Shown: positions 29,866-46,200 of the stretch, in pieces
Layout of the letters: each line of letters begins with the position of its first letter
Numbering within the stretch: the first letter of the stretch is position 1
Source of the DNA: Ignavibacteriales bacterium
GTDB lineage: Bacteria > Bacteroidota > Ignavibacteria > Ignavibacteriales > Ignavibacteriaceae
Reading direction: 5' to 3'
Assembly: GCA_012517155.1 (NCBI GenBank)
Contig: JAAYVN010000026.1
Location: forward strand, 1 to 64,000
Length of the DNA stretch: 64,000 bases
The notes under the pieces: generated by a model
What the model saw: the letters and a program-made list of their open reading frames with translations, nothing else
Database searches by the model: none
Told to the model about the DNA's origin: nothing
Position numbers and translations under genes: made by a program

Positions 29866-30182
29866 CCCACTTTTTCCGGACCTTCCAACTCATCCGCAAA
29901 AATTTCCCTTCAGCGAGGTGGATTAATGAAAGGGGAGTTTTGAATTCAACAAATCAATAAATATACAAATAAACAATTAAACCGTTCATTTATTCATACG
30001 TTCATTAACTACTCACTATTCACTACTCGCGATTCACAACCTCCTGTCTACTTTTTACTAAACCCTAATCAGACATTACTCCCGGTTTGAACTTTCCGGA
30101 TTAGCCAAGTGCTGACCATTTGATTATTACACAATTTTCCTTTATTTTAAACGCTAATAATTTAAAGATTCTAAGGCATTGT
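29866..30182. other. Intergenic region upstream of aldehyde dehydrogenase
   Basis: About 320 bases without a gene. A stretch near 29985-30040 is rich in TTCATT and CACTA repeats of low complexity. The reading frame of the downstream dehydrogenase is open back to 30120 but does not look coding there. I could not place a promoter. Confidence 0.45.
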
Positions 30183-31766: not shown

Positions 31767-31826
31767 TTTCTTATATTTACAATGTAGTTTTTATTTATTC
31801 ACTAAAACAAAATCAAGGTAGATAAA

Positions 31827-32126
31827 ATGGCAGTTATGATAACAGACGATTGTATTGCTTGCGGTGCCTGCGAAGCAGAATGCCCCAATAATGCAATCTA
31901 TAATACAGGCGATCCATATATGATAGGCGGGGAAGAATTTCCTGCTTTAAATGATGATCATACTTATATCGTACCGGATAAATGTACGGAATGTATTGGT
32001 TTTTATGATGAACCACAGTGTATTCCTGCATGCCCTACTGATGCAATAGTCAAGGATCCAAACAGGGTCGAAACTCATGAAGTATTGATGGCTCGGAAAG
32101 AACATTTGGATGCCGTAGGAAGATAG
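31827..32126 (+). CDS. 2[4Fe-4S] ferredoxin, Alvin/YfhL type
   Basis: A 99-residue ferredoxin. Cluster one uses Cys9, Cys12, Cys15 and Cys19 (CIACGACEAEC). Cluster two has the enlarged spacing Cys53, Cys56, Cys65, Cys69 (CTECIGFYDEPQCIPAC), and a C-terminal helix follows; both features mark the Allochromatium-type low-potential ferredoxins. There is a ~12-residue insertion between the clusters (YMIGGEEFPALN). It lies 60 bases after the aldehyde dehydrogenase and ends at a strong terminator, so it may serve as electron carrier for general anaerobic metabolism. Confidence 0.93.
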   Translation: MAVMITDDCIACGACEAECPNNAIYNTGDPYMIGGEEFPALNDDHTYIVPDKCTECIGFYDEPQCIPACPTDAIVKDPNRVETHEVLMARKEHLDAVGR

Positions 32127-32145
32127 TTAATATCTTTTTTTGAAC

Positions 32146-32189
32146 AGCTGACTCATTTTTCTTGTTATGAATGAGTCAGCTTTTTTTTT
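32146..32189 (+). terminator. Intrinsic terminator after the ferredoxin gene
   Basis: A 12-bp perfect stem pairs 32146-32157 (AGCTGACTCATT) with 32170-32181 (AATGAGTCAGCT), followed by nine T residues. An ATG inside the right arm (32171) is in frame with the next gene but cannot reasonably be its start. Confidence 0.92.
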
Positions 32190-32203
32190 ATAAAGGAAAT
32201 TCA

Positions 32204-32785
32204 ATGGAAGAAAATGTAAAATTGGCGTTAGCCGGAAAATCTGTAAGCTTTGATGAGTTCTTAAACAATGCCGAGAACAAGGTGGAAAACACATGGACCG
32301 GTGATCAGGATTTGCTTGATTATACAAAATTAAATATTCAGAGAATGAAAAGGATTATTAAAACCTATACCCCGTCTGCTGAAATATTGGATGCAATGAA
32401 AAGGATCCGAGACAAGCAAACCTGGATGGTAATTACGGAAGATTGGTGCGGGGATTCAGCTCAGAATCTTCCATTTATCAGCAAGATCGCTGATTTGAAT
32501 GGCAGTGTTAGCCTAAGGATAATTGAGCGTGACAGGAATCTTGATATAATGGATATGTATTTGACTTCGGGAGCACGCAGTATCCCAAAATTAATTGCAT
32601 TCGATAAGGAGGGTAACGAGTTATTTCAATGGGGAGCACGCCCTGCATCAGCTGCTGAATTAATGAAAAATATGCGGGAGCAAGGTCTGAAAAAGGAAGA
32701 AATGATCGAAAAACTGCATTTTTGGTATGCAAAAAACAAGGGAGCAGACCTTGAAAAAGAATTTATTACTCTCCTGAGTAAATAA
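32204..32785 (+). CDS. Thioredoxin-fold family protein
   Basis: A 193-residue cytoplasmic protein of the Thioredoxin_9 type. The active-site segment is EDWCGDSAQNLPF: the first Cys is kept and the second is Ser, as is normal in this subgroup, so a classical disulfide exchange is unlikely. The cis-Pro region is SIPKLIAFD. The ATG at 32204 lies just after the terminator of the ferredoxin gene with a fair Shine-Dalgarno (AAAGGAA). Function unknown; converges on the sigma54 activator gene. Confidence 0.82.
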   Translation: MEENVKLALAGKSVSFDEFLNNAENKVENTWTGDQDLLDYTKLNIQRMKRIIKTYTPSAEILDAMKRIRDKQTWMVITEDWCGDSAQNLPFISKIADLNGSVSLRIIERDRNLDIMDMYLTSGARSIPKLIAFDKEGNELFQWGARPASAAELMKNMREQGLKKEEMIEKLHFWYAKNKGADLEKEFITLLSK

Positions 32786-32809
32786 TTTAAATTATGGCCC
32801 ACACTCTGT

Positions 32810-34555
32810 TTAATTGAGCGAGCTGTCCGTAATTTTCAACTTTACCATCTTTCGCCATAATGTTGATGGATTTATCGACAATTCCTTCGCCGCTTTTCTC
32901 CTGTTACCGTTGTGTTTTTTCAGAACAGCAATAATTGTCCCTCTTTCCACCAACTCAAGTTTTTGCAGATTAGACACATCTTCGTTTTTATTATAGTCTG
33001 CCGATTTTTCTCTCAGTCTCTTTGGAAGACTATCCACACAAATTGACTCCCTGTTACAAAGTATGAAACAATGCTCGATTATGTTTTCCAACTCTCTGAT
33101 ATTACCGGGGAACGGATATTCGGAAAGTATATCGTATGCTTCGGGTGAGACACTGGTAATGTTTTTTGAAAATTTGCGGTTGAAAATTGTAATAAAATGA
33201 TTTATAAGTATGGGGAGATCATCCCTCCTTTCGCGTAAAGGGGGTAAGTGGATATTAATTACGTTAATTCGATAGAAGAGATCAGCTCTGAATCTCCCTT
33301 CTCTGATTTCCCGATTAAGGTCTTTATTTGTTGCGGCTATTACTCTGGTATTCATTTTTATGGTTTTATTTCCGCCGACTCTTTCGAATTCCAGAGTTTC
33401 AATTACTCTTAGTAGTTTTGTTTGCACGGTCAGGGAAAGATCCCCAATCTCATCAAGAAAGAGCGTGCCGTTCTGAGCCAGTTCAAATCTCCCGGTCTTT
33501 GTCTTTGATGCGCCGGTAAAAGCCCCAGCCTCATGACCGAACAGTTCACTCTCTATTAGCGTTTCTGCAAATGCACTGCAGTTTACTGCAATGAACGGTG
33601 CGTTTTTCCTGGGGCTGTTAAGATGAATAGCCCGCGCTACAAGTTCTTTTCCTGTTCCGCTCTCACCGGTGATCAGCACGGTGGTATTCGTCTGAGAGAC
33701 TGATTCGAGTACGTGGATAACCTGCTGAAGTTCCTTGCTCTTCCCTACAATATTCTCGTATTTGTAAGTATCTGCAAGATGGGAAGTCAGGTTTTTTATT
33801 TCACTAATGTCAATAAATGTCTCTACTGCGCCAATTATTTGTTTTTTGTTATTCACCAGAATCGCGGAATTAACCTTAATAGGGAGTTTGCGGTTGTTTT
33901 TATTCAGGATCTCAACTTCATTACCTATGGTTGGTTTTCCTTTCTGCATGGTAGTTTCCATGTGACAACCATTCCGGCAGATGTTCGAATTAAAAATCGT
34001 CCAGCATTTTTTTCCTATCGCTTCTGTTTTTTTATAACCAGTTATATTTTCGGCGGATTTGTTGAATGAGGTTATTTCCCAGTCGTTATTTATTGTAAAC
34101 GTTCCCTCAATATTGCTGTTGAATATTGCATCCAGCCGGTTTTTCTGTTCAATCAGCTCGCCGGTTTTTGACTCTATTTCATTTGCCAGCGAAAGCATTT
34201 CATAAGTATCCCTGAAAATCAGAACCACACTAATCACACTTTCGTCCTTTAATATCGGAGTTAACGAAGCAAGCACAGGTTTTGTTGAACTGTCTTTATG
34301 TGTCAGGTGCAGAGATAAATTGGTGAAAGTAAGATTATTTGCTATTGAATCGCGAATATATTTCAGATCCCTCGAATGTTCTTCAAAAAGAAGCCGGATG
34401 GACTGAGAAAGTATATCATCCTCCCCAAATCCGGTTATACGCGAAGCTGCTTCATTGAACACAATTATATTTAGATCCTTGTTGATTATCGCAATGCCAT
34501 CCGGCAATACCAGGGTTTCCTTGCTGCGGTCTATTATTTGCTTTACTTCACTCAT
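32810..34555 (-). CDS. Sigma54-dependent transcriptional activator with two PAS domains
   Basis: A 581-residue enhancer-binding protein. PAS1 covers ~15-115 and PAS2 ~140-255. PAS2 contains Cys184, Cys193 and Cys197 (KKCWTIFNSNICRNGCHMET), a pattern suited to an Fe-S cluster or metal and seen in activators of redox operons. The AAA+ domain has Walker A GESGTGKE (297-304), the sigma54-contacting GAFTGA (344-349) and Walker B TLFLDEIGD. A Fis-type helix-turn-helix (NRRKAAKELSINPSTLWRKM) is at the C-terminus. It has no receiver domain, so it probably senses a redox or metal signal directly. It is divergent from the radical SAM/ORP-like operon, which is its likely target. This matches the layout of the ORP operons in Desulfovibrio. 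Confidence 0.93.
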   Translation of the reverse strand: MSEVKQIIDRSKETLVLPDGIAIINKDLNIIVFNEAASRITGFGEDDILSQSIRLLFEEHSRDLKYIRDSIANNLTFTNLSLHLTHKDSSTKPVLASLTPILKDESVISVVLIFRDTYEMLSLANEIESKTGELIEQKNRLDAIFNSNIEGTFTINNDWEITSFNKSAENITGYKKTEAIGKKCWTIFNSNICRNGCHMETTMQKGKPTIGNEVEILNKNNRKLPIKVNSAILVNNKKQIIGAVETFIDISEIKNLTSHLADTYKYENIVGKSKELQQVIHVLESVSQTNTTVLITGESGTGKELVARAIHLNSPRKNAPFIAVNCSAFAETLIESELFGHEAGAFTGASKTKTGRFELAQNGTLFLDEIGDLSLTVQTKLLRVIETLEFERVGGNKTIKMNTRVIAATNKDLNREIREGRFRADLFYRINVINIHLPPLRERRDDLPILINHFITIFNRKFSKNITSVSPEAYDILSEYPFPGNIRELENIIEHCFILCNRESICVDSLPKRLREKSADYNKNEDVSNLQKLELVERGTIIAVLKKHNGNRRKAAKELSINPSTLWRKMVKLKITDSSLN

Positions 34556-34589
34556 ATTTTAAAGTTTTTCCACAAAGATAACTTAATAA

Positions 34590-34634
34590 TTGCAAAAATG
34601 CAACGCACTTCCACATAATAGTGCTGAAATGCAA
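34590..34634. promoter_or_regulatory. Candidate paired upstream activating sites
   Basis: TTGCAAAAATGCAA (34590-34603) is a perfect inverted repeat of TTGCA with a 4-base spacer. GTGCTGAAATGCAA (34621-34634) matches it at 11 of 14 positions. The centres are 31 bp apart, about three helical turns, and both are ~180 bp upstream of the candidate sigma54 promoter. This geometry is what is expected for dimers of a Fis-type enhancer-binding protein. Confidence 0.5.
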
Positions 34635-34797
34635 TAAAACTTTTTCAGCTTAATTCTTAAATAAATAAACCAGGCAAGCCAACTGACAGGGATAATTATC
34701 CTCTTTTTCGTCTTTTTTCAAAGGAAATCTGACCCTCTGATTTTGATTATCATCCCCATTTGTAAGAAATATAACCGGTTATTCAGTTCTTTCAGCA

Positions 34798-34813
34798 TTG
34801 GCATGGAATTGGA
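34798..34813 (+). promoter_or_regulatory. Weak candidate sigma54 promoter
   Basis: TTGGCATGGAATTGGA has a good -24 element (TGGCAT against TGGCAC) with GG at 34800-34801, but the base pair 12 positions on is GA instead of GC. It is the best match in the region and is placed 50 bases before the start codon. The match is weak and rests partly on the presence of a sigma54 activator next door. Confidence 0.3.
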
Positions 34814-34863
34814 ACTCATTTACGGACGATGTGATTTTATTCCAATTTTAATAAAGGTGCAAA

Positions 34864-35955
34864 ATGGAAAATTCTGAAAAAAAATCTGGTAATAAAACAG
34901 GTATTGAAGTGAAAAAAGGAATTAAAAGTTTTCTTCATCAGAAAATGGAACTTTTCTGTGATAAACTGGAAATGAGTATCCTGAAAGATAATGCGGATAA
35001 AAGTGGCGTAGTGTATGGACCAGTTCCCTCAAGAAGACTTGGATACAGTCTGGGAATAAACAATATAAAAAGAAAGATATGTACCTATGACTGTATTTAC
35101 TGTCAGGCAGGAAAAACTACCTGCTGTTCAGAAGAAAAGGACTGCTGCTTGTCTCCGCATGAGTTGTACTTCCTGGTAAAACAGAAGATACAGAGTATTA
35201 AAAAAGAAAATTTACATGTAGACTACATTAGTTTTGTACCAAATGGCGAACCTACAATAGATGGCAATCTCGATAAAGAGATAAAACTCCTCAGGGAATT
35301 TGGGTATAAAATTGCCGTCTTTACCAACTCTTCTCTCCTCTGGAACGACAATGTTAAAGCCAGGTTAATTAATGCTGATTACGTTTCCGTTAAAGTGGAC
35401 ACGCTCGACGAGGAACTGTGGGAAAAAATTAACCGACCTCATTGCCGGCTCCGTTTCGATAAGGTTATTCAGGGAATCCGGGAGTTCTCGAATTCATTTG
35501 ACGGCACTCTCACTACTGAGACCATGCTAATTAAAGGAATGAACGATAACTTAAAGGAAATCCGGGCAACAGGTGAATTCCTGAATAATCTTAAGCACGA
35601 TAAGGCTTATTTTACAATCCCTATTCGTCCCCCCGCAGAACCCTATGCAATGATCCCCTCCAAAAATACACTCATGGACCTCAGAAATTATATTAATGAT
35701 AATATTCGGGATGCAGAAATGTTGTGTTGTCCTGAAAGCGGCGATTTTAGTATATTTGATAAGATAGAAAATGATATTTTGGGGATTTTGTCGGTTCATC
35801 CTATGAGGGAGGAGGCATTGAAGAGCATGCTGGAGAAAAAGGATTTGAACAGAAGCATTATTGGTTTGCTGGTTGAACGGGGTGATATTAAACGGGTCAG
35901 TTATGAAGAAACCACATTCTATTCGCTTGCGGATATTAAGGAGCAGGAAGTATGA
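34864..35955 (+). CDS. Radical SAM protein, COG0731-like, with C-terminal winged helix
   Basis: A 363-residue radical SAM enzyme. The cluster motif is CTYDCIYC (Cys73, Cys77, Cys80), preceded by the family signature YGPVPSRRLGYSLGIN. It resembles the COG0731 group, often annotated as wyosine-synthase-like though bacteria do not make wyosine. Extra cysteines (TTCCSEEKDCC, near 85-96) follow the motif. Residues ~300-363 look like a small winged-helix domain (GILSVHPMREEALKSMLEK ... GDIKRVSYEETTFYS). It is the first gene of the operon divergent from the sigma54 activator; its stop overlaps the next start (ATGA). A role in maturing the cofactor or proteins of the ORP-like system is inference. Confidence 0.85.
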   Translation: MENSEKKSGNKTGIEVKKGIKSFLHQKMELFCDKLEMSILKDNADKSGVVYGPVPSRRLGYSLGINNIKRKICTYDCIYCQAGKTTCCSEEKDCCLSPHELYFLVKQKIQSIKKENLHVDYISFVPNGEPTIDGNLDKEIKLLREFGYKIAVFTNSSLLWNDNVKARLINADYVSVKVDTLDEELWEKINRPHCRLRFDKVIQGIREFSNSFDGTLTTETMLIKGMNDNLKEIRATGEFLNNLKHDKAYFTIPIRPPAEPYAMIPSKNTLMDLRNYINDNIRDAEMLCCPESGDFSIFDKIENDILGILSVHPMREEALKSMLEKKDLNRSIIGLLVERGDIKRVSYEETTFYSLADIKEQEV

Positions 35956-36353
35956 GAACTTTGGATTTCCGAAAGTATTTGAAGTTATTGCTTTATCTTG
36001 TTGCACTTCATTCTTTTTTGGTTGGTTTGGGATTAATAATTATGCCCTCTGCTTTTATTGAAAGTCTTGGCTATTATCCCTGCGGTGAACGCTTTTTCAG
36101 GGCGCAAGGGGGAGTGTTCCACATCGCAATGGCTGTGGGTTACGCAATGGCGGGGTTCAACAGCCGCAGGTTTCAATGCCTGGTTATCTTTTCGATTATT
36201 GTTAAAATAGTTGCAACTCTCTTTTTATTCTCGTATTTTGTGTTTGTAAATCAACTTTTAATTCTTCTTCTTTCACTGATTTCTGATTTTCTGATGGGTG
36301 TTTTTATTTGGGTTCTGTATTACTATTCAAATAAAGAGGCTGGAACGGAGTAA
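35952..36353 (+). CDS. Small four-helix membrane protein
   Basis: A 133-residue membrane protein with four hydrophobic helices (about 10-30, 50-65, 70-92, 96-120). Its start overlaps the radical SAM gene by 4 bases and its stop is 3 bases from the SDR gene, so it is firmly inside the operon. No family is recognised. The loop between helices one and two has the segment YYPCGERFFRAQGG. Confidence 0.65.
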   Translation: MRTLDFRKYLKLLLYLVALHSFLVGLGLIIMPSAFIESLGYYPCGERFFRAQGGVFHIAMAVGYAMAGFNSRRFQCLVIFSIIVKIVATLFLFSYFVFVNQLLILLLSLISDFLMGVFIWVLYYYSNKEAGTE

Positions 36354-36356
36354 GTC

Positions 36357-38000
36357 ATGACAACTAAATTACCTTCCTTAGTCGTTACGGGAGCGAGTGG
36401 CTTTATTGGCAGATTTCTTTTGGAAAGCATTAAGGATGAATTTAAAATATTTGCAATTGCAAGAAGATCCCGTAAAGAAGCAAATATCCCGTATCACAAA
36501 AACATTCACTGGATTCAATGGGATGTGGCAAACAACGAAACCCTTAAGGATGTCGGAAAATATATCTTGGATAATGGGGGTGCCGAAACTGTTATTCATC
36601 TCGCTGCTTTCTATGATTTTACCTACGAAGATAATGATGAGTATGAACGCACGAATATAGGCGGTACACGCAATGTCTTGGATCTGGCTAAAATTATAAG
36701 TATCAAGAGGTTTTTATTCGCAAGCTCGCTCGCTGCCTGTAATTTCCCCAAAGGAGATGAAAAAATTACCGAAACTACTCAGCCTCTTGCTGACTTTGCT
36801 TATGCAAGGAGTAAGAAAAAGGGGGAGGAGATGGTGAAGGAGTATTCCCCATTTTTTAAGACCCATGTTATCAGATTTGCTGCTGTATATAGCGACTGGT
36901 GTGAGTATGCACCTCTCTATAAATTCCTTTTAACCTGGTTATCAAAAAAAATTGATTCGAGGATTCTTGCCGGGAAAGGAGAATCAAGCATTCCTTATAT
37001 ACATGTCCAGGATATAGTATCAATAATCAGAGTAATTATTAAGAAATCCGATGAACTAAAAAGTTTTGGTATTTATAGTGCCAGTGCCGATGGATCCGTC
37101 TCTCACAGCGAGTTGTTTAAAATCGCCACTGGATACTATTTCGGACGGTTTATTAAGCCCTACTATCTGCCAAAATCACTTGCTTACCCGGGACTGTTTG
37201 CAAAAAAACTTTTAAAGTATTGCCATTTTTTCTGCGAGGAACCATTTGAGAAAAGCTGGATGATTAAATACATTGATAAAAAATTGAATGTTGATTCTTC
37301 ACTAACAAGAAAGATCCTGGAATGGGAACCTGCTCCCAGATACCACATCACAAGGCGATTGCTTTTTATCCTGGAGAAAATGAAAAGTCATCCTGATGAG
37401 TGGCATCTTAAAAACGAAGCCGCACTTAAGAAAGTGACCCGAAGAGAAAATTTGATGATTTATGAAGCTCTTTCCGAGAAAAAAGACTCTCTTATCTCCC
37501 TTATAATTGACAAGATTACGTCAAATGAAAATGAATCGAAGTTCTTCAGATACAAAAATCTTGATAGCGAGGACTTTAAGTGTTATTTGAGTACACTCTA
37601 CCATCTGCTGATGGCAACCGTTAGAAGCGGCGACAGGGGTTTGATGATCCAGTATATTGACGATATTGCTCTGAGGAGATTTGCCGAGGGATTTGAATCT
37701 GCTGAAATTTGCGAAACACTAGTAGTAATTAAAGATGTTATCCTTAAAGAACTGAATGAATTACCGGAATTGAAGAAAATCAGACAAATAGTGTACGACT
37801 ACATTGGCTTGACCCTCCAACTGGCACAGGACGAAGTAGAGGACCTTTACTATCGTCTGATTGACAGAATGCCCAAGGAAAGAATTTCCGAGTCACCATT
37901 ATTACCCGACTGTAAAAAATTACAAGCTATGATCAGACAGTTAAGCGCTTTTTATCAAATTTCACCAGACGAGGGGAAGTATTACGAGGATATGCAATAA
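36357..38000 (+). CDS. Extended SDR (epimerase/reductase) fused to an RsbRD_N-like helical domain
   Basis: A 547-residue two-part protein. Residues 1-~340 are an extended short-chain dehydrogenase: VTGASGFIGRFLL (10-22), DVANN, HLAAFYD, and the catalytic FASS (121-124), Tyr149 and Lys153 (YARSK). Residues ~365-505 are all-helical and look like the RsbRD N-terminal globin-like sensor domain (IIDKITSN, Y..LDSEDFKCYL, GDRGLMIQYIDDIALRRFAEGF). In known stressosome proteins such domains are sensors; a fusion to an SDR is unusual. It sits between two membrane protein genes in the sigma54-linked operon. Substrate and signal are unknown; the family match of the C-terminal part is by pattern only. Confidence 0.75.
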   Translation: MTTKLPSLVVTGASGFIGRFLLESIKDEFKIFAIARRSRKEANIPYHKNIHWIQWDVANNETLKDVGKYILDNGGAETVIHLAAFYDFTYEDNDEYERTNIGGTRNVLDLAKIISIKRFLFASSLAACNFPKGDEKITETTQPLADFAYARSKKKGEEMVKEYSPFFKTHVIRFAAVYSDWCEYAPLYKFLLTWLSKKIDSRILAGKGESSIPYIHVQDIVSIIRVIIKKSDELKSFGIYSASADGSVSHSELFKIATGYYFGRFIKPYYLPKSLAYPGLFAKKLLKYCHFFCEEPFEKSWMIKYIDKKLNVDSSLTRKILEWEPAPRYHITRRLLFILEKMKSHPDEWHLKNEAALKKVTRRENLMIYEALSEKKDSLISLIIDKITSNENESKFFRYKNLDSEDFKCYLSTLYHLLMATVRSGDRGLMIQYIDDIALRRFAEGFESAEICETLVVIKDVILKELNELPELKKIRQIVYDYIGLTLQLAQDEVEDLYYRLIDRMPKERISESPLLPDCKKLQAMIRQLSAFYQISPDEGKYYEDMQ

Positions 38001-38031
38001 ATAATAAATTAATCTTAAGGAAAGCGATAAT

Positions 38032-38514
38032 ATGTATTTAGTTAAAATACTTGATTTTGTCAGAATTGGACTTGTGGCTCTTACGTTTTATTTTGGTTAT
38101 AGTATCGGATTTGAAAATGAATATGATCCTAATGCTCAACTGCATTTTATGATTCCAATTATTATTGTTGCTGTAGCAGGAATTTCGGGTTTGGAAGGTC
38201 TTTTAATGCCGGAAAAAGCAGCAAAAATAAAAGGATATGAAGTCGGAAGTAACTATCAAATGCAGTCTGCCATAGCTTTGCTGTCATATGCTTTTACTGC
38301 AATTATTATATATTTTGCAAATTGGGGAACGAAAGCTGAATTAACGATATTTTTCGCATTTATATTCTTTTTCTTTTTCTCGGGTGTAAATCATTTTGTG
38401 GATGCCGTAAAACGAAAGAATTATAAATGGCAGAACATTAATCGCTTATTCATTGTACTGCTGTTAATGGCGGGAATGGTTTATCCCGTTTATATGGCTG
38501 TTAAATTAATGTAA
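38032..38514 (+). CDS. Membrane protein of unknown function
   Basis: A 160-residue protein with about five hydrophobic helices (10-28, 38-58, 77-95, 103-120, 138-157). The third to fourth helix region carries SGVNHFVDAVKR, with conserved-looking N-H. No function is recognised. It lies 31 bases after the SDR fusion gene and 44 bases before the DUF5320 gene, on the same strand. Confidence 0.65.
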   Translation: MYLVKILDFVRIGLVALTFYFGYSIGFENEYDPNAQLHFMIPIIIVAVAGISGLEGLLMPEKAAKIKGYEVGSNYQMQSAIALLSYAFTAIIIYFANWGTKAELTIFFAFIFFFFFSGVNHFVDAVKRKNYKWQNINRLFIVLLLMAGMVYPVYMAVKLM

Positions 38515-38558
38515 TAAAATTTCTTATTTAATAATAATAAAATATGGATGGAGGAAAT

Positions 38559-38804
38559 ATGCCTAATTTAGATGGAACCGGACCAAACGGAGAAGGTCCG
38601 TTAACCGGAAGAAGAAGAGGTCGCTGTAAAGGTAGCCTCAATAATATAAAACCAAAAGAAGAACCAGAAGAAAAAATTCAAACTCCCGAAGAGTCTAACC
38701 TTCCCGGCAGGGGACGCGGATTCGGCAGTGGTCGAGGTCTTGGAAAAGGTCGCCAGGGTAGAGGAGGAGGAAAACGAAACAGATTCCGGGGGAGTAATGA
38801 ATGA
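38559..38804 (+). CDS. DUF5320-family Gly/Arg-rich small protein
   Basis: An 81-residue low-complexity protein beginning MPNLDGTGPNGEGPLTGRRR, the hallmark of DUF5320, and ending in a Gly/Arg-rich tail (RGRGFGSGRGLGKGRQGRGG). A strong Shine-Dalgarno GGAGG at 38550-38554 precedes the ATG at 38559; an in-frame ATG at 38544 is less likely. DUF5320 genes are commonly found beside NifX/ORP-type and MinD/ferredoxin ATPase genes in anaerobes. Function is unknown; the tail suggests nucleic acid or polyanion binding, but that is speculation. Confidence 0.85.
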   Translation: MPNLDGTGPNGEGPLTGRRRGRCKGSLNNIKPKEEPEEKIQTPEESNLPGRGRGFGSGRGLGKGRQGRGGGKRNRFRGSNE

Positions 38805-38865
38805 GGGGAATATTGAATTTGTAAAACTCAATAATATAACTTTTGAAAAAGGAGTATCGAAGCAG

Positions 38866-39243
38866 ATGAGATTAGCAGTAGCGATCGAAGAACGTAATGA
38901 AAAAGAACTTGTAGCTGAACATTTCGGAAGATGCACTAAGTTTAATATATGTGAACTGGATGCTGAAAATAATCTTCTGAAAATCGAGGAGTACTTTAAT
39001 CCGCTCGCCGGACAACACAGCGGTGCCTGTCAGCTTCCCGGATACGTTAGACAATTTAATGTCAATACCATTATAGCTGGAGGTATGGGACAGAAAGCAA
39101 TAGCCAATTTCCATAGTTTCGGGATAGATGTCATTACTGCTCCAGGGGTTATCTTTAACGATGTTATTAAGTTATTCTGTGAAGGGAAATTGTCCGGTTA
39201 TGAAACATGTACTCATGGACATGGTCACGAGCATAATTGTTAG
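38866..39243 (+). CDS. NifX/ORP-like (dinitrogenase Fe-Mo cofactor domain) protein with His-rich tail
   Basis: A 125-residue protein of the NifB/NifX-type cofactor-binding fold (MRLAVAIEE..., AEHFGRCTKFNICEL, INTIIAGGMGQKAI-like core, APGVIFNDVIKLF). The C-terminus ends CTHGHGHEHNC, a strong metal-binding tail. The start at 38866 follows AAAGGAG (38848-38854) and coincides with the domain start; an alternative ATG at 38797 overlapping the DUF5320 gene is possible. The family includes the orange protein (ORP) that binds a Mo-Cu cluster in Desulfovibrio. The stop codon is adjacent to the next ATPase start. Confidence 0.85.
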   Translation: MRLAVAIEERNEKELVAEHFGRCTKFNICELDAENNLLKIEEYFNPLAGQHSGACQLPGYVRQFNVNTIIAGGMGQKAIANFHSFGIDVITAPGVIFNDVIKLFCEGKLSGYETCTHGHGHEHNC

Positions 39244-40140
39244 ATGAAAAATGGTTTGAAGGTTGCCGTTGCCTCCGGTAAAGGAGGCACCGGAAAAACA
39301 ACTATTGCTTGTGGTTTGGCAAGTGTAATTGATTTTCCTGTTTATATTGACTGCGATGTTGAAGAACCAAATGGTCACATTCTGCTTAAACCGGAGATTC
39401 ATAATGTAGATACCGCATTTAAACTAGTCCCCTCTATTTCCGTTAATAAATGTTCTTTGTGTACTAAGTGTATCGAAGTATGCGAATTCAATGCGTTATT
39501 CAAATTGGGAGAGGAGATTTATTTGCTTCAGGAACTCTGTCATAGTTGTGGGGCTTGTTCCTGCTTCTGTCCTGAGAATGCTATTACGGAACAAAAATGG
39601 GAAATCGGGAAAATTAGGAGTGGAAAGATAAATGATAAGCTCTTTTTTTTCGATGGTATCTTGAAAATCGGTGAACAGTCAGCCCCCCCCTTAATTCGAC
39701 AAGTTAAAGGGAAACTCTTTTCTGGTAGTGAAGCACCTTTTTATAAGAACCATAATATTATTGTTGATTCTCCACCCGGAACTTCATGTTCGTTGTTTGA
39801 GAGCATTAAAGAAGTTGACTTTTGCATATTAGTGACTGAATCCACACCGTTTGGACTTAATGACTTGAAACTTGCGGTGGATGTAATTAAAGAAAGCAAT
39901 ATTCCTTTTGGAATAGTGATTAATAAATATGATCCTGAATATCCTGAAATTGAACAATACTTACAACTAACGGGTATTACTCTTTTATTAAAAATCCCTT
40001 TTTCGAAAAAAGTAGCTCAGATCTATTCCCGAGGGACGATCCCTTCCTATGAAGACGAGAAATTTGCACAAATGATGAAACTTCTTTGGATGGGTGTCGG
40101 GAATGAAGTGGATAAAACCATAAGGAGCAAGGTAAATTAA
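39244..40140 (+). CDS. MinD/ParA-superfamily ATPase with inserted ferredoxin domain (first)
   Basis: A 298-residue deviant Walker ATPase. P-loop ASGKGGTGKTT is at residues 10-20, and the switch region includes VDSPPGTSC. A 2[4Fe-4S] ferredoxin domain is inserted: Cys70, Cys73, Cys76, Cys80 and Cys99, Cys102, Cys105, Cys109. This architecture is that of the paired ATPases of the ORP complex and relates to Mrp/NBP35-type Fe-S carriers. It begins one base after the NifX-like gene and is followed by its paralog 82 bases later. Probable role: ATP-driven assembly or transfer of a metal cluster, or membrane-linked positioning, by analogy only. Confidence 0.92.
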   Translation: MKNGLKVAVASGKGGTGKTTIACGLASVIDFPVYIDCDVEEPNGHILLKPEIHNVDTAFKLVPSISVNKCSLCTKCIEVCEFNALFKLGEEIYLLQELCHSCGACSCFCPENAITEQKWEIGKIRSGKINDKLFFFDGILKIGEQSAPPLIRQVKGKLFSGSEAPFYKNHNIIVDSPPGTSCSLFESIKEVDFCILVTESTPFGLNDLKLAVDVIKESNIPFGIVINKYDPEYPEIEQYLQLTGITLLLKIPFSKKVAQIYSRGTIPSYEDEKFAQMMKLLWMGVGNEVDKTIRSKVN

Positions 40141-40222
40141 CTTTTAACTTTTCCAAACTCGTGAAAATATCTAAATTGAATATGGATAATCTTCTGAAGG
40201 GTTTAATTGTACATGGCGGATA

Positions 40223-41092
40223 ATGCAAAAATGGTATAAACAAATAGTTGTACTAAGCGGAAAAGGTGGAACAGGAAAAACTACTGTCTCATCTAGTCTG
40301 GCTGAGATAGTTTCAGATAAGATTGTAATAGATGCGGATGTTGATGCCTCGAATTTACATCTGGTCTTAAAACACAAAGAAATTGAAAGACATAATTACT
40401 CAGGAGGAAAAAAAGCCCGAATAATTAGTGAGAAATGCTCTTTGTGTGGTTTATGCGAATCGGTTTGCAGGTTTAGTGCAATTAAGAATTTTCAGGTTGA
40501 TAAAGTGGCTTGTGAAGGATGCGGGTTTTGTTATCGGATATGTCCTGATGGGGCTATTGAGTTTGTTGAAACAAAAACGGGAGAATATTATGAAAGTAAA
40601 CTCGTTGATGGCTCTGATTTCTATTATGCAAAGTTATTAGCAGGAGAAGGGAATTCTGGAAAACTCGTAAGTGAATTGAAAAAGACAGCGATAAATAATA
40701 TAAATCCTGATATAAAATGGATAATTATTGATGGACCACCCGGCATCGGTTGTCCAGTTAATGCCTCTCTTTCCGGATCGGATTTTGTACTGATTGTAAC
40801 GGAACCAACCGAGTCGGGTTACCATGATCTGAAAAGACTGATTGAGCTGCTAAATGTTTTTAAATTAAAAGCCGGTCTCATCATTAATAAGTTTGACATT
40901 AATTCTGAGATGAGTGAAAAAATAGCTCATTTTGCTAAGGAATGCGGCATACCCTTAGTAGGGAAGTTCCCATTTGACTATATTTTTGTTAAAGCGGTTC
41001 AGAAATCAAAAGCTTTAGTGCATGAAAGTGAATTTTATAAAAAGCAATTTATAACTATTTGGAAAGAAATTGAAATAATAATTAATAAATAA
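40223..41092 (+). CDS. MinD/ParA-superfamily ATPase with inserted ferredoxin domain (second)
   Basis: A 289-residue paralog of the preceding protein. P-loop LSGKGGTGKTT is at residues 11-21, Walker A' region DADVDASNLH at 38-47, and IDGPPGIGCP forms the switch II segment. The ferredoxin insert uses Cys72, Cys75, Cys78, Cys82 and Cys97, Cys100, Cys103, Cys107. Ferredoxin-bearing ATPases normally come in such pairs, suggesting a heterodimer. The gap of 82 bases before it has no hairpin. Confidence 0.92.
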   Translation: MQKWYKQIVVLSGKGGTGKTTVSSSLAEIVSDKIVIDADVDASNLHLVLKHKEIERHNYSGGKKARIISEKCSLCGLCESVCRFSAIKNFQVDKVACEGCGFCYRICPDGAIEFVETKTGEYYESKLVDGSDFYYAKLLAGEGNSGKLVSELKKTAINNINPDIKWIIIDGPPGIGCPVNASLSGSDFVLIVTEPTESGYHDLKRLIELLNVFKLKAGLIINKFDINSEMSEKIAHFAKECGIPLVGKFPFDYIFVKAVQKSKALVHESEFYKKQFITIWKEIEIIINK

Positions 41093-41102
41093 AGGAAGAA
41101 AA

Positions 41103-41423
41103 ATGAAAATTGCAATAACATCGAGAGGAGAATCATTGGATTCAATGGTTTGCGAACAATTCGGCAGAACCCCATACTTCATTATTCTGGATCCGGTTAC
41201 TATGGAATACCAGGCAGTTGTCAATACAGCCGAGCAACTGCAAAGCGGAGCTGGGCCTAAAGCAGCAGAACTTATTTTAAGTTTTGGAGCGGAAAAAGTT
41301 ATAACCGGTCATGTTGGCGATAAAGCGGAAGCTGCTTTAAAAAAGGGACATGTAGAAATCCATGATGGATATTGCAATACTATGAAAGTGATAGAAGCAA
41401 TAGAAAAATATAAGGGAAGTTAA
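41103..41423 (+). CDS. NifX/ORP-like (dinitrogenase Fe-Mo cofactor domain) protein
   Basis: A 106-residue single-domain protein close in size to ORP. It shows MKIAITSRGESLDSMVCEQFGR-type start (seen as ITSRGESLDSMV and CEQFGRTPYFII), the GPKAAELILSFGAEKVITG core and a C-terminal VEIHDGYC. The conserved C.QFGR and A..L motifs fit the cofactor-binding fold; Cys17 and the Cys near residue 92 are candidate ligands. It follows the second ATPase by 10 bases with Shine-Dalgarno AAAGGAAG. Confidence 0.9.
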   Translation: MKIAITSRGESLDSMVCEQFGRTPYFIILDPVTMEYQAVVNTAEQLQSGAGPKAAELILSFGAEKVITGHVGDKAEAALKKGHVEIHDGYCNTMKVIEAIEKYKGS

Positions 41424-41444
41424 TAATCAGACGATAGGGCTAAA

Positions 41445-42281
41445 ATGATCAAAAAATTGCTGATTGAAACAGTTCAGATAACTCTGCTCGTCGGGGTTAT
41501 GATGATACTGGTTGATTTGATTAACGTACTCTCAAAAAAACGGCTTGAGGGATATTTTATAAAGGCAAGAAGATATAAGCAATATGTACTCTCTTCTCTG
41601 ATTGGTGCAGTACCCGGTTGTTTAGGGGGATTTATGAATGTCTCTTTGTATGTTCATGGATTTATCACCTTCGGCGCTTTGACCGGAAGTATGATCGCTG
41701 TTTCCGGCGATGAGGCATTCGTAATGCTGGCAATGTTTCCGGAAACTGCTCTGGTCTTATTCGCCATTTTGTTTGTTATTGGCTTGTTTAGCGGAATGCT
41801 TATAGATGTAGTTGTAAAAAAGTATAAAATAAGCACTTGCTCCAATTGTAAGGAAATGATTGTCCATATGAATTTGGAAAGGAATACTCTTCATTACTTA
41901 AAAGAGCACATTTATGGGCATATTATAAAAAAACATTTATGGAAAACTGCGCTCTGGACTTTCGCCGCGTTAGCATTAGTTGAAATTGGTCTGGAATATC
42001 TGAATCTGGAAAAATTCACAAGCGAATATAAAATCGTTTTCCTTCTATTTGGGGCGCTGGTGGGTCTTATTCCCGAATCGGGACCGCATTTAATTTTTGT
42101 AACTTTATTCGCACAGGGCTTGATCCCTTTTTCTGTTCTCTTGACCAGTTCAATTGTTCAGGACGGTCATGGCATGTTACCGATGCTGAGTTATTCTTTT
42201 ACGGACTCAGTAAAAATCAAGGTCTTTAATCTCATTATCGGTTTATCGCTTGGCTTGTTCCTTTTCTTGATTGGTTTATAG
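41445..42281 (+). CDS. Putative 10TM heavy-metal exporter-family permease (ArsP_2 type)
   Basis: A 278-residue polytopic protein with about eight to ten hydrophobic helices and an internal duplication: SLIGAVPGCLGGF near residue 51 and GALVGLIPESGPHLIF near 205. The cytosolic loop in the middle contains CSNCKEM (near 131) and HMNLERNTLHYLKEH with many His, possible metal ligands. This matches the family annotated as putative 10TM heavy-metal exporters related to the ArsP arsenic permeases. The substrate is not known. It is 21 bases downstream of the ORP-like gene and overlaps the methyltransferase reading frame. Confidence 0.78.
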   Translation: MIKKLLIETVQITLLVGVMMILVDLINVLSKKRLEGYFIKARRYKQYVLSSLIGAVPGCLGGFMNVSLYVHGFITFGALTGSMIAVSGDEAFVMLAMFPETALVLFAILFVIGLFSGMLIDVVVKKYKISTCSNCKEMIVHMNLERNTLHYLKEHIYGHIIKKHLWKTALWTFAALALVEIGLEYLNLEKFTSEYKIVFLLFGALVGLIPESGPHLIFVTLFAQGLIPFSVLLTSSIVQDGHGMLPMLSYSFTDSVKIKVFNLIIGLSLGLFLFLIGL

Positions 42282-42288
42282 GTGCATT

Positions 42289-42909
42289 GTGAAAGAAAAA
42301 AATCATTGGTACGACGGCTGGATATACGATAAGTTTATTGCTCCTAATCAGGATAAGATGTTCAGTAAAATTCTGAACTTGATTGAGGAAGGAACCAATG
42401 TTGTTGACGTTGGTTGCGGAACCGGGAGGTTCTCGTTTCTAGCTGTAAATAAGGTTGACAGAATCATCGGCGTAGACTTGTCATTAAAGAATATTGAGAT
42501 TGCCAGAAAAACGCTTGAAAGCAAATGGAATAATAAGATCTCTTTCTCTCACTCAGGAATTGAGGATATTGATACAGGCGAAAATAAGTTATTTGATTAT
42601 GCCGTGATGACATATGTTATCCATGAAATTCAACCGGAGGATGGGATTGAGTTACTTAAAACAATCAGCAGAAAAGCAAAAAAAATAATAATTGGGGATT
42701 ATCTTGTCCCGCAACCGGATGGACTTGTAAAAGTGATTAACGAGTTAGTTGAGTTTTTCGCAGGGAGTGAGCATTATGAAAATTATAAAAAATATACAAA
42801 TAACGGGGGGATTGAGTATCTGGCAGAAGTTGCAGGATTGAAAATTGACTACGATGAAAAAAATCTGAAGCAGGGGAGTCGGATTATAATACTAAAAGGG
42901 GATAAATAA
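42289..42909 (+). CDS. Class I SAM-dependent methyltransferase
   Basis: A 206-residue Rossmann-fold methyltransferase. Motif I is VVDVGCGTGRFSFLA, motif II is IGVDLSLKNIEIAR, and the post-motif segment is FDYAVMTYVIHEI. The GTG at 42289 is preferred: it has AGGTGC 5-9 bases upstream, whereas an in-frame TTG at 42271 lies inside the preceding gene. The gene ends the ORP-like operon; the tRNA genes follow on the other strand. Acceptor unknown; a metalloid or a cofactor precursor is possible given the neighbour. Confidence 0.82.
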   Translation: MKEKNHWYDGWIYDKFIAPNQDKMFSKILNLIEEGTNVVDVGCGTGRFSFLAVNKVDRIIGVDLSLKNIEIARKTLESKWNNKISFSHSGIEDIDTGENKLFDYAVMTYVIHEIQPEDGIELLKTISRKAKKIIIGDYLVPQPDGLVKVINELVEFFAGSEHYENYKKYTNNGGIEYLAEVAGLKIDYDEKNLKQGSRIIILKGDK

Positions 42910-42940
42910 AGTTGTTAAGTACAATTTATGGGAAGAGTAG

Positions 42941-43014
42941 TAGCGCGTACGGGATTTGAACCCGTGATCTCCGCCTTGAGAGGGCGGCGTCCTAAGCCAC
43001 TAGACGAACGCGCC
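42941..43014 (-). tRNA. tRNA-Glu (anticodon CUC)
   Basis: Read on the minus strand it folds as a full cloverleaf: acceptor GGCGCGT/ACGCGCT (one G-U pair at the end), D-arm GTCTAGTGGC, anticodon stem CCGCC/GGCGG with loop CTCTCAA giving anticodon CUC, and T-arm with GTTCAAATC. Discriminator A. The CCA end is not encoded. Sequence is typical of bacterial tRNA-Glu. Confidence 0.95.
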
Positions 43015-43031
43015 ATTTGATCAAACTTACG

Positions 43032-43104
43032 CTGCCCCGTCAGGGGTCGAACCTGAACTCTTCTGATCCAGAGTCAGACGTGTTGCCAGTTACACCACGG
43101 GGCA
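43032..43104 (-). tRNA. tRNA-Gln (anticodon CUG)
   Basis: Minus strand cloverleaf: acceptor TGCCCCG/CGGGGCA, anticodon stem TCTGA/TCAGA with loop CTCTGGA giving anticodon CUG, and T-arm with GTTCGACCC. Discriminator G and the U1-A72 pair are the glutamine identity features. CCA is not encoded. It lies 17 bases upstream of tRNA-Glu in the same transcript. Confidence 0.95.
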
Positions 43105-43177
43105 AAAGATAAAAATAAGATTTCAAAAATAACATTATTAGGCAAAAAAACAAAATGCTTATCATAGAATAAGCACA

Positions 43178-43204
43178 AAAAAGGCAGCCATAGGCTGCCT
43201 TTTT
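43178..43204 (-). terminator. Intrinsic terminator downstream of the BNR/T9SS gene
   Basis: A 12-bp stem (AAAAAGGCAGCC with GGCTGCCTTTTT) around a 3-base loop. On the minus strand it follows the 1326-residue protein gene by 19 bases and ends in a U run. A second small hairpin (TGCTTAT/ATAAGCA) lies at 43156-43175. Confidence 0.85.
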
Positions 43205-43223
43205 AGCGAATTAATGTTCTTAA

Positions 43224-46200
43224 TTACTTCAGGAACATCATTTTCTTGCTATCCATAAAGGAATTGCCGGTTGTTTTGTCTATTGCAACAATGCGATAGA
43301 TGTACATGCCCGTAGCAAGTTTGAAATTAGTTGCTTCAAGATCAAATGAATGATATCCGGCGCTCATTTCCTGATTAATAAGTGAACCGACTTTTTGTCC
43401 GGTAATATCGAACAGTTCGATTGTAACGTTTGCATCTGCCGGTAACTGATAATCAATTCTGGTTGTCGGGTTGAACGGATTCGGATAGTTCTGAGACATC
43501 GAGAACGAATTCGGAGTTCCGATTTCAACGTTAATAACCTGGCTGTATTCATATGTTCCGTCAAAGTCAACTATTTTCAGCCTGTAATTAAGTTTGCCTG
43601 CTGATGCATTCTTGTCAACAAATGAATAGGTCTTGAGTTCTGTTGAAGTTCCGGATGCCTGGACAAAACCAACGGTCTGCCAGCCATTTCCATTACTTCT
43701 TTCAATCTGGAATCTGTCGCTGTTTGATTCTGTAGCAGTTGACCAGTTAAGAACAACGTCCTTGTCCATAACTGCCGCAGTGAATGAGGTGAGTTCAACA
43801 GGAACAGGTCTGATTGTGTTGTATGCACCAAAACCGTTATTTGTACCAAGTACAAAAATTGTTGCACTTCCGTCATTGTTGATTCGGAAAGCAATGTCTC
43901 CTGTACCTCCAACATTTGAGTTCGAACCAAGACTTGGGGTTAACTCATATAAAGATGCACCGGGTATATCACCGACGGGAACCTGAATTATTCGCGCATT
44001 TTCATTTCCTGCACCATACTGATAAACTACAACGAGTTCCTTACCTCCTGTTGTTCCAAGATATCTTGGAGCGTTGGAACCTGTAGCTACAACAGTACCA
44101 GGAACAGTTCCAAGGAGTGTTCCGTCAGCCGCAAATTTCTTAAGGCTTATTCCTCCGGCTTTATAGTAGAAGTCGCCGTTTGGTAATGGACCAACTGATG
44201 CACTTCCAACTGCAGTTATGGTTGGATCTGCAAGAGTTACAATTGTAGGAACTGGGTTAAATACTCCGCCTGACATTGTAAATTTATATACTTTCAAGTG
44301 AGCAAGCGTTGCACTTGCTGCCCAAATTACTGCAGTTCCTGCCGTGTAATCACCGGTTACAGTTACCTTGTCACCAAGTCTTACAGGGTCACCTGCATAT
44401 TTTAAAGCTACAATAGGAAGCGCTGCTTCATTATTCCACATATATACTCTGAAAGTATCTGAGGAGGCATTGGTTGTTAAATTGCATGAAAGAATTTTTC
44501 CGTCGGAAGTTACATCTACGTCACTCAGAGCATGAGTTCCACCCGAGATACCTGTAATATCCAGGCTACCTATATCATTTCCTGTAAGAGCATCAACAAC
44601 TTTAACGAAAACACCAGCGTTTCTGCTAACTACATAAACTCTGTCATTTGTCTCAGTCGCATTTGTTTTTCCAAAAGCTAAACCTCTCTCACTACTTCCG
44701 GTGGTTGAGAACCATGGGGGAAGGGAAACCTGGGCTGCAGATTTCTCCCAAAGAGTTGTTGTAAGAGGTGATACTGTCAGTACACCAGAATTGTTTGTAG
44801 TTCCGTTCCAGAATCCACCACCACTGGCGCTATAACCTCCATACTGATATGGAGCTGTGTTATACTGCCATCTTGCTGCGTAGTAATAAGTTCCGGGGAT
44901 TAATCCTGCACCTATATCAGCCATAAATTCATCATTGTTGCTTACATGACCCGCATTATAGGTAGCCAGTTTCCATGCTGATTCATTCCAGGTGGAGGGA
45001 TCAGTGTTTGCCGAGTTAACTCCGATCCAGCAAACCAGACCAGGAGCTGCACCCGGAGCAGGAGTAACGCCGTTGATCCATGCCTGAGCATAAACTCTGT
45101 CTGAATCACCGCGGACTACGTTAATTGTGGCAGGCCACTGTAAGTTAGCCCAGTCAATCATAACAACCGGAGGAACAAATGTACGCTTATGCATATAAGC
45201 ATTTGAGCCGGCTGTATAGAATGTTGTATTTCCTTTTGAGTTGGTTGCAACACTAAGACCATACTGCGTAGCTCCGGAGCTATTAGTTAATTCCCATGTA
45301 GCACCGCCGTCCGTTGTATAGAAAGCCGTACCGGAACTTCCAATAACCATACCTTTATTCGCATCAAGGAAATGAACGTTGTAATTTGAGTAGGAGCGTG
45401 TAGGAACGGTCAAAGTATCCCAGTTAACTCCGCCGTTGGTAGTTTTGTAAATTCTTCCTGAACCGCCAACACAATAGCCAACGTTTGCGTCAATCATCTG
45501 AATGTCGTATAAAAATCCGGAGTAAGTATCTACCAGGTTTTGTTCTGTCCATGTTGCTCCGCCGTCTGTTGTGACGTAGGGACGAGGTTTATATGAAACA
45601 ACCCAGCCTACATTTTCATTAAGCATGTGGGCCCCGTAAATCCCTAAATTACTTGCCGATTGTCCCGTTAACATAGAGCCGGTCCATGTAGCTCCGCCAT
45701 CAGTAGTTTTGAAAATTGTATTAGTGCCTGCTGCTGAAGCATATGTGGAGAAAATCCAACCGACATTTTGGTTTATGAAATCTACTTTTCTAAGAGTCAG
45801 ACCTGCTGGAAGAGTAGTGGCAACAGAATCCCATGTAAGTCCGCCGTCAGTAGTTTTATAAACAGCACTCATTGTACCCACTGCCCAACCAATCTGATCA
45901 GTTACCATATCAATACTCCAGATTTGAGTATAAGGAGATGGAGTGAGTTCCGGAGTTAATTTGCTCTCTTCAACCTGTTCGGTTTCGGGAACGAAGACCG
46001 TTTGCTTAGGTGCATTTCCTTTGGTGGTTGTGGCAATAGACCAATTTTGTCCTCCGTTGGTTGAATGGACGAACTGGTCGAAAGCGAATCCGGTTGAAGA
46101 AGGACCACCCGCAGCAATTAATTTTGAACCGTCATTGCTAGCCCAGATGTCATACAGTGTACCGGCTCTGAAAAACATTGAATATGTTTTATATCTTGTA

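Follow-up and report, generated by a model that had tools for sequence, protein, structure and literature searches.

We analysed a window of 64,000 nucleotides from an Ignavibacteriales bacterium of oxygen-poor habitats (contig JAAYVN010000026.1) and focused on positions 32810-42909, where a minus-strand gene for a sigma54 activator, hereafter EBP, stands beside eleven plus-strand genes whose gaps in the list of open reading frames (ORFs) are short or replaced by overlaps. We hold, with moderate confidence, that this locus is an orange-protein (ORP)-type regulon that would serve the ATP-driven assembly, delivery or storage of iron-sulfide, and not Mo-Cu-S chemistry; the gene set is firm, and it is the metal and the client that we infer. 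Every gene claimed for this stretch corresponds to an ORF, and profile matches name eleven of the twelve genes, the exception being a small membrane protein, mem133. The original prediction, in which a sigma54 activator is divergent from an operon with two ATPases bearing two [4Fe-4S] inserts each, two PF02579 proteins, DUF5320 and a radical SAM enzyme, was confirmed by the ORFs and profiles, and its wider claim, that an ORP-type set with added accessory genes lies beside such an activator in a genome of the Ignavibacteria kind, also found support. The host genome is 99.65% complete and encodes a sigma54 factor.

The activator and its regulon

The EBP gene (32810..34555, minus strand) encodes, according to profile matches, two PAS domains, an AAA+ domain with a GAFTGA motif (Sigma54_activat, 241.9 bits) and HTH_8. 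Three cysteines of the second PAS domain (C184, C193 and C197) are invariant across six aligned EBP sensors. Activators of the OrpR type carry an Fe-S cluster on a PAS domain for redox sensing, and the PAS domain of EBP is probably an Fe-S redox sensor as well. Of the 245 class genomes searched, all from the class of the window, 15 have an ortholog scoring above 400 bits. Our set of 16 EBP loci comprises 14 of the 15 loci with strong orthologs (genome G111 was left out) together with loci L005 and L014.

The palindrome TTGCA-N4-TGCAA, with at most one mismatch, occurs in all 16 EBP loci (300 shuffles: mean 0.68, maximum 5), and in 14 of them a tandem second palindrome lies 29-34 bp off (shuffles: 0.01, maximum 1). 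A -24/-12 element that scores at least 10 under our own scoring scheme and is directed at the operon is present in 11 of the 16 (shuffles: 1.41, maximum 5), namely in the window and in 10 of the other 15 loci. In 15 of the 16, a same-strand ORP-type gene is found within about 13-17 kb on the regulated side; the sole locus without one (G180) ends at a contig boundary, and for G029 the ORP gene was counted from a second contig, which ends in the expected gene order. On this comparison of sequences, EBP defines a regulon that is marked by the tandem palindrome and an ORP gene, and EBP itself would be the protein that binds the palindromes.

In the window, the proposed EBP site 1 (34590..34603) is a perfect palindrome, and the proposed site 2 (34621..34634; neither site is assigned a strand), 31 bp from site 1, has two mismatches. 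A sigma54-like -24/-12 element, TGGCATGGAATTGGAA, lies at 34799..34814 on the plus strand, with a spacing one base below the usual. The perfect palindrome has seven copies genome-wide. The copy at 34590 is the only one that avoids the listed ORFs and is accompanied by a second site; around the other six, a companion was looked for over 200 bases and a sigma54-like element over 300, and neither turned up, imperfect copies not having been searched genome-wide. One of the ORFs that hold a perfect copy (in L090) may be spurious. The exact sigma54 consensus was also tried over the whole window and gave two matches, none of them in this intergenic region, a number to be expected by chance, since 41 of 100 shuffles reached two or more.

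When 23 gene types were counted over the EBP loci, ORP-A was the most frequent (13/16). DUF5320, the radical SAM gene (window included) and a thioesterase-like gene each occur in eight loci; ATP1/ATP2, a pyruvoyl-dependent arginine decarboxylase (PdaD) and an FAD oxidoreductase in seven; SDR/mem133 and DUF89 in six; Mrp, CGGC and the methyltransferase in five; a peptide deformylase-like gene in four; the permease in two; and mem160 in one, the window. Because of these counts, which include loci without the ATPases, the comparison suggests that the activator and the ORP gene are the stable unit. As regards the earlier concern that the genes might be scattered in relatives, the core is not scattered; the accessories (permease, mem160 and methyltransferase) partly are, and the SDR pair is often elsewhere.

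Three further loci (L102, L103 and L104) hold remoter EBP paralogs (~600 bits), similar palindromes and PF02579 matches on the same stretches. A DUF134-type regulator gene was seen in the ATP2 loci L055, L057, L058, L059, L061, L065 and L067, where no strong sigma54 activator was seen; it is perhaps an alternative regulator in those loci, the profile having been run on L057 alone.

A conserved pair of ferredoxin-bearing ATPases

ATP1 (39244..40140) and ATP2 (40223..41092), both on the plus strand, are MinD-type ATPases, each with a CbiA match, two Fer4 stretches carrying two [4Fe-4S] motifs, and a cysteine after switch II (DSPPGTSC in ATP1, DGPPGIGC in ATP2). Across 11 aligned sequences each, both proteins retain the deviant Walker A, the eight ferredoxin cysteines and the further invariant cysteine after switch II, and the two alignments (A1 and A2) contain no invariant CxxC beyond the ferredoxin motifs. 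The separate Mrp ATPases of relatives have aspartate at the switch-II cysteine position (DLPPGTGD). Cys132, a cluster ligand of the nitrogenase Fe protein, stands at the same distance from the switch-II aspartate as the extra cysteine of the two ATPases. The model of ATP2 has a mean pLDDT of 91.0; its best structural match is MinD, with further matches to the ATPase-type HypB, Cfd1, ApbC and the nitrogenase Fe protein (all at TM 0.5-0.6), and the search of solved structures gave no chain matching ATP2 across both its ATPase and its ferredoxin parts.

With a threshold for true ATP2 of >290 bits, we found 21 copies in 20 of the 245 class genomes. Each of the 21 shares its contig with an ATP1 match, mostly as a direct neighbour and never more than ~2.1 kb off; in G008 the two are separated by a radical SAM gene. 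ORP-type genes are present in the ATP2 loci of all 20 genomes. Within the window's own family, ATP2 occurs only in the window's genome among 18 sampled; two Melioribacteraceae-labelled loci (59% and 57% identity) and one under the label Bacteroidetes (58%) are among the nearest ATP2 loci found. A separate search yielded 42 ATP2 loci, whose labels include Bacteroidota, Archaeoglobales, Dehalococcoidia, Syntrophomonadaceae and others, with ATP1 in 39 (the other three start near a contig end) and an ORP-type gene in 38 (E up to 1e-4).

The ORP proteins and DUF5320

The two ORP proteins, ORP-A (38866..39243) and ORP-B (41103..41423), both on the plus strand, account for all PF02579 matches of the genome (53.7 and 54.4 bits; cut-off 26.3). 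ORP-A has an HFGRC motif and a C-terminal tail with cysteine and histidine, and ORP-B has no tail. The longest ORF for ORP-A starts at 38728; judged from relatives, the start is probably 38866 (MRLAVAIEE). HFG(R/H)C is kept in 13 of 15 ORP-A orthologs and the Cys/His tail in 12, the exceptions being L014, with histidine only, and L069 and L095, without such a tail. ORP-A also matches the Di-Nase part of MrpORP (NF041136; 58.5 bits, profile positions 262-364), a domain reported to bind [3Fe-4S] and to have the conserved motifs CXHFGHCE and CDH (PMC6345978). A search of solved structures with ORP-A returned six matches, named hypothetical, conserved hypothetical, uncharacterized or “probable NifB”.

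DUF5320 (38556..38804, plus strand; 34.3 bits, cut-off 27) is a Gly/Arg-rich cationic polypeptide; its listed ORF starts at 38544, and relatives indicate that the start is probably 38556 (MPNLDGTG). Most DUF5320 proteins begin with MPxxDxTGP or something similar, followed by the Gly/Arg-rich segment. Among 72 genomes of the order, 12 of the 14 DUF5320 matches above the cut-off have a PF02579 match no more than 160 bp away (the other two being on contig 21 of G267 and in G265), and so do 13 of 17 when all matches at E up to 0.01 are counted. Among the seven third-ORP tails listed for relatives, three end in Lys/Arg runs (L048, L049 and L101). The tail of IssA is cationic and rich in glycine and aromatic residues, and is proposed to wrap anionic thioferrate (PMC5524996). 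By analogy, we hypothesize that DUF5320 may be a cationic iron-sulfide-binding segment that acts in trans. Our open-access literature search turned up DUF5320 only for poplar heat-shock factors and archaeal G-quadruplexes, as judged from the listing, and it found no paper pairing DUF5320, COG1149 and related terms.

The SDR/mem133 pair

The extended SDR (36357..38000, plus strand) has the motifs TGASGFIG and YARSK. It had been described as an SDR-sensor fusion; the “sensor” half reaches 18.7 bits for RsbRD_N, short of the cut-off of 24.3. This C-terminal part, weakly RsbRD_N-like, is all-helical in a model of the fusion of low to moderate confidence (mean pLDDT 65.5). Next to it, mem133 (35952..36353, plus strand) has no Pfam match. 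Matches to mem133 occur in 26 of the 245 class genomes, among them 11 of the 20 ATP2 genomes (Fisher p = 2e-7; kinship not corrected), and the six best-scoring ones all lie within ORP loci.

The SDR C-terminal part scores >60 bits in 22 genomes. By coordinates, the SDR gene adjoins mem133 in 18 of them; the two are separated in G001, G015 and G025, and are on two contig ends in G029. Three genomes have mem133 but no SDR match: G092, G188 and, with a weak mem133 match, G043. In 8 of the 22 genomes the SDR gene has an ORP gene nearby, five of these being ATP2 loci (G000, G146, G055, G032 and G012) and three being genomes without ATP2 (G107, G029 and G196). The gene order is EBP, mem133, SDR, ORP-A in G107, and ferredoxin-like gene, mem133, SDR, radical SAM, PF02579 in G196. 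No ORP gene was seen in the SDR regions of 11 other genomes, with G015, G025 and G197 outside the count. The link of the SDR pair to ORP is thus real in some lineages and not general. A literature search on the pair gave 24 papers, and none of the 10 listed describes it, judging by titles. Of the 11 genomes without a nearby ORP gene, G221 has DUF89 next to the SDR/mem133 pair, and G123 has a distant EBP-like gene; at L049 2200-2420 the SDR gene is interrupted by an in-frame stop.

Which metal does the operon handle?

The original prediction implied a Mo-Cu-S role, and this part was not supported. Profile searches gave zero matches for ModA, MoeA and SBP_bac_11 in the host's own genome; SBP_bac_11 is a wider family with molybdate and tungstate binders among its members. 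In 14 control genomes the three families were matched in 11, 11 and 14, respectively (over the cut-off in 9, 11 and 13). Among the 20 ATP2 genomes, 19 are without ModA and 15 without MoeA. Some EBP loci of relatives also point to an iron or Fe-S setting: of the 16, five have Mrp, two Dps and three peroxiredoxin, and the ATP2 locus L003/L048 contains FeS_assembly_P and Dps. The comparison with relatives suggests a role of the operon in handling iron and sulfur and not molybdenum and copper. For this genome, we disfavour the Mo-Cu reading.

Several observations weigh against an iron-sulfide regulon. One ATP2 genome does have ModA, five have MoeA and nine have SBP_bac_11 (eight over the cut-off, most weak), and our search covered three families, such that a molybdenum route outside them would escape it. 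Orp8 of Desulfovibrio vulgaris, from the same kind of complex, is a reported homologue of proteins that carry an S2MoS2CuS2MoS2 cluster (PMC6345978). Genes of the iron and Fe-S setting are limited to a minority of EBP loci, and the DUF5320 of the window is less aromatic than the IssA tail. The EBP loci are mutually related, four of the 16 coming from one genus, and their counts are therefore non-independent. Finally, the -24/-12 element of the window, one base short in its spacing, is weaker than most of the relatives' elements and is located ~100 bp further from the palindromes than theirs.

Alternative explanations

If the locus were a Mo-Cu orange-protein system, its ORPs would bind a thiomolybdate-copper cluster for Mo/Cu storage or detoxification. 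The homology of Orp8 speaks for this explanation, but the nearly complete host genome has none of the three Mo-related families, most of the ATPase genomes are without MoeA and ModA, and ORP-A not only gives a match to the MrpORP Fe-S domain but also offers Cys/His residues as possible ligands; we consider this explanation improbable. An arsenic or other heavy-metal export and detoxification cassette, with the ORPs buffering metal for the permease, is quite improbable: the permease scores above the arsenic_eff cut-off, and a gene for a CDF exporter lies beside it in L053, with a homolog further on in L014, but the permease occurs in just two of the 16 EBP loci and in one other fetched ATP2 locus (L053).

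Maturation of a single client metalloenzyme would make the operon a cofactor factory of nif-like logic, with a radical SAM step, a scaffold and an ATPase carrier. A radical SAM enzyme, a NifX-type scaffold and an Fe-protein-like ATPase do resemble a cofactor assembly line, and the SDR gene, which lies near an ORP gene in eight genomes, would fit as well; however, no recurring client enzyme was recognised across the 16 EBP loci, and the commonest gene type is ORP-A, with radical SAM in only half of the loci, so that we regard this explanation as possible but unlikely. We give very little weight to the remaining one, a machine for cell division or polar positioning, which has been suggested for the ORP complex of D. 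vulgaris. In that species MrpORP is reported to be polar (PMC6345978), and ATP2 has a predicted MinD-like fold. Nine of the 16 EBP loci, however, are without ATP1/ATP2 in the fetched stretch (in one the contig breaks off, and in G207 and G180 the ATPases are encoded elsewhere) and eight of these nine keep an ORP gene, and neither the ferredoxin inserts nor the invariant cysteine is needed for such a role.

Relationship to known systems

The closest comparison is with the ORP complex of D. vulgaris Hildenborough (DVU2103-DVU2109). That complex shares with the window's locus divergent transcription with a sigma54 activator, two ATPases (Orp3 and Orp4) with two [4Fe-4S] motifs each, and a stand-alone PF02579-type protein (Orp8 there, two genes here). 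The activator DVU2106 is reported to have two palindromic sites and sigma54 promoters (PMC3897727). Two palindromic activator sites are likewise proposed here, by sequence only and the second with two mismatches, and the two systems are likened by description and not by site sequence. The D. vulgaris complex also includes a small [2Fe-2S] protein, Orp5. In contrast to that complex, the locus studied here is one operon with no MrpORP fusion (Orp9), and adds radical SAM, SDR/mem133, DUF6790, DUF5320, the permease and the methyltransferase, and its genome is without matches to the three Mo-related families. The motif of the D. vulgaris activator is GAFTDA (PMC4641369), compared with GAFTGA in the window. 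Because the MrpORP fusion is absent, we class the window's locus as a variant of the ORP kind and do not count it as belonging to the D. vulgaris complex.

With MrpORP itself (NF041136), ORP-A shares HFGRC and the C-terminal Cys/His, which resemble the CXHFGHCE and CDH motifs, but it lacks the NBP35 fusion, its 58.5 bits falling short of the cut-off of 450, and Mrp is a separate gene where it occurs in EBP loci. The thioferrate-storage protein IssA of Pyrococcus furiosus, also from an anaerobe and an iron-sulfur setting, combines a PF02579-type domain with a Gly-rich cationic segment. Here, in contrast, the cationic segment is a separate gene, DUF5320; a single chain of PF02579 and a long cationic tail is not present, the tail of ORP-A being Cys/His-rich and ORP-B being tailless. 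The NBP35/ApbC/Cfd1 group and the nitrogenase Fe protein have the deviant-Walker fold that the model predicts for ATP2. The cysteine of ATP1 and ATP2 occupies the position of the last aspartate of the Mrp motif DLPPGTGD, but the two ATPases differ from this group by their ferredoxin-type insert and by the absence of an invariant CxxC outside the ferredoxin motifs.

Accessory genes and surroundings

The radical SAM enzyme (34864..35955, plus strand) has the cysteine motif CTYDCIYC and a Radical_SAM profile score of 48.6 bits; a search of solved structures gave three weak, unhelpful matches. mem160 (38032..38514, plus strand) is a DUF6790 membrane protein (31.2 bits; cut-off 27.1). The permease (41445..42281, plus strand), predicted earlier to belong to a heavy-metal-exporter family, indeed matches arsenic_eff (NF037962) with 119.8 bits against a cut-off of 100, and ArsP_2 with 122.4; its homologs are in L014 and L053. 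The last gene of the operon encodes a class I SAM methyltransferase (42271..42909, plus strand), as named by its profile. Its assignment as CpaM (NF043040) was rejected at 65.2 bits against a cut-off of 180, as was an HgcAB-like link, the matches to which are far under the cut-off. In G055 the methyltransferase lies just past the counted stretch (L050).

Two minus-strand tRNA genes (42941-43104) come after the operon, and genes for an aldehyde dehydrogenase, a 2[4Fe-4S] ferredoxin and Thioredoxin_9 (30120-32785) lie just before the activator. An Rfam scan of 30000-43300 returned the two tRNAs and two matches far under their gathering scores, with no riboswitch before the permease. In relatives, a peptide deformylase-like gene, named from sequence with no profile, adjoins ORP-A in four EBP loci of one genus (L091 6867-7457, L092 8054-8659, L100 7871-8464 and L101 6609-7214). 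PdaD recurs beside ORP genes (L014, L048, L051, L052, L091-L093, L100 and L101), often accompanied by a thioesterase-like gene, and heterodisulfide-reductase-like genes, again named from sequence, are found beyond the ORP regulon in L091 (11574-16001) and L092 (145-4766).

Proposed mechanism and implications

For the iron-sulfide regulon that we favour, a scheme can be outlined. EBP would read redox or Fe-S status through its three-cysteine PAS domain, bind the two palindromes between its own gene and the operon and switch on the sigma54 promoter, leading to expression of the ORPs, often of DUF5320 and in some species of the ATPase pair. ATP1 and ATP2 would act as a MinD-like pair, with the ferredoxin inserts supplying electrons, and the switch-II cysteine of each might serve to hold a cluster, or to gate one, where the dimer meets; using ATP and these electrons, the pair may build, move or release iron-sulfide on ORP and DUF5320. 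The PF02579 proteins would bind the iron-sulfide, and the cationic DUF5320 might hold anionic species in the manner proposed for the archaeal IssA tail. The radical SAM enzyme, SDR/mem133, permease and methyltransferase would be accessories. The sequences themselves show the gene content, the conserved palindromes, the linkage between EBP and ORP genes and the lack of matches to three Mo-related families; in this scheme we infer the binding of EBP to the palindromes, the Fe-S cargo, the redox trigger, the direction, the ATPase mechanism and the role of DUF5320.

A more specific version is rather doubtful. In it, DUF5320, as a trans-encoded iron-sulfide-binding tail, and PF02579 would together form a thioferrate-like store in bacteria, turned on by a redox-sensing sigma54 activator and filled or emptied by ATP1-ATP2, with SDR/mem133 as a membrane-linked, NAD(P)-dependent ORP partner in some lineages, able to work without the ATPases. 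Its probability is lowered by the position of the SDR pair, which is near an ORP gene in only 8 of 22 genomes.

Proposals in the literature for what the ORP complex does in anaerobes comprise Mo-Cu chemistry, cell division and Fe-S biogenesis. A conserved tandem palindrome with an ORP gene almost always on its regulated side, in a host genome that gives no match to the three Mo-related families, helps to separate those proposals, and the analysis names testable partners, namely DUF5320, the ATPase pair and, more tentatively, SDR/mem133.

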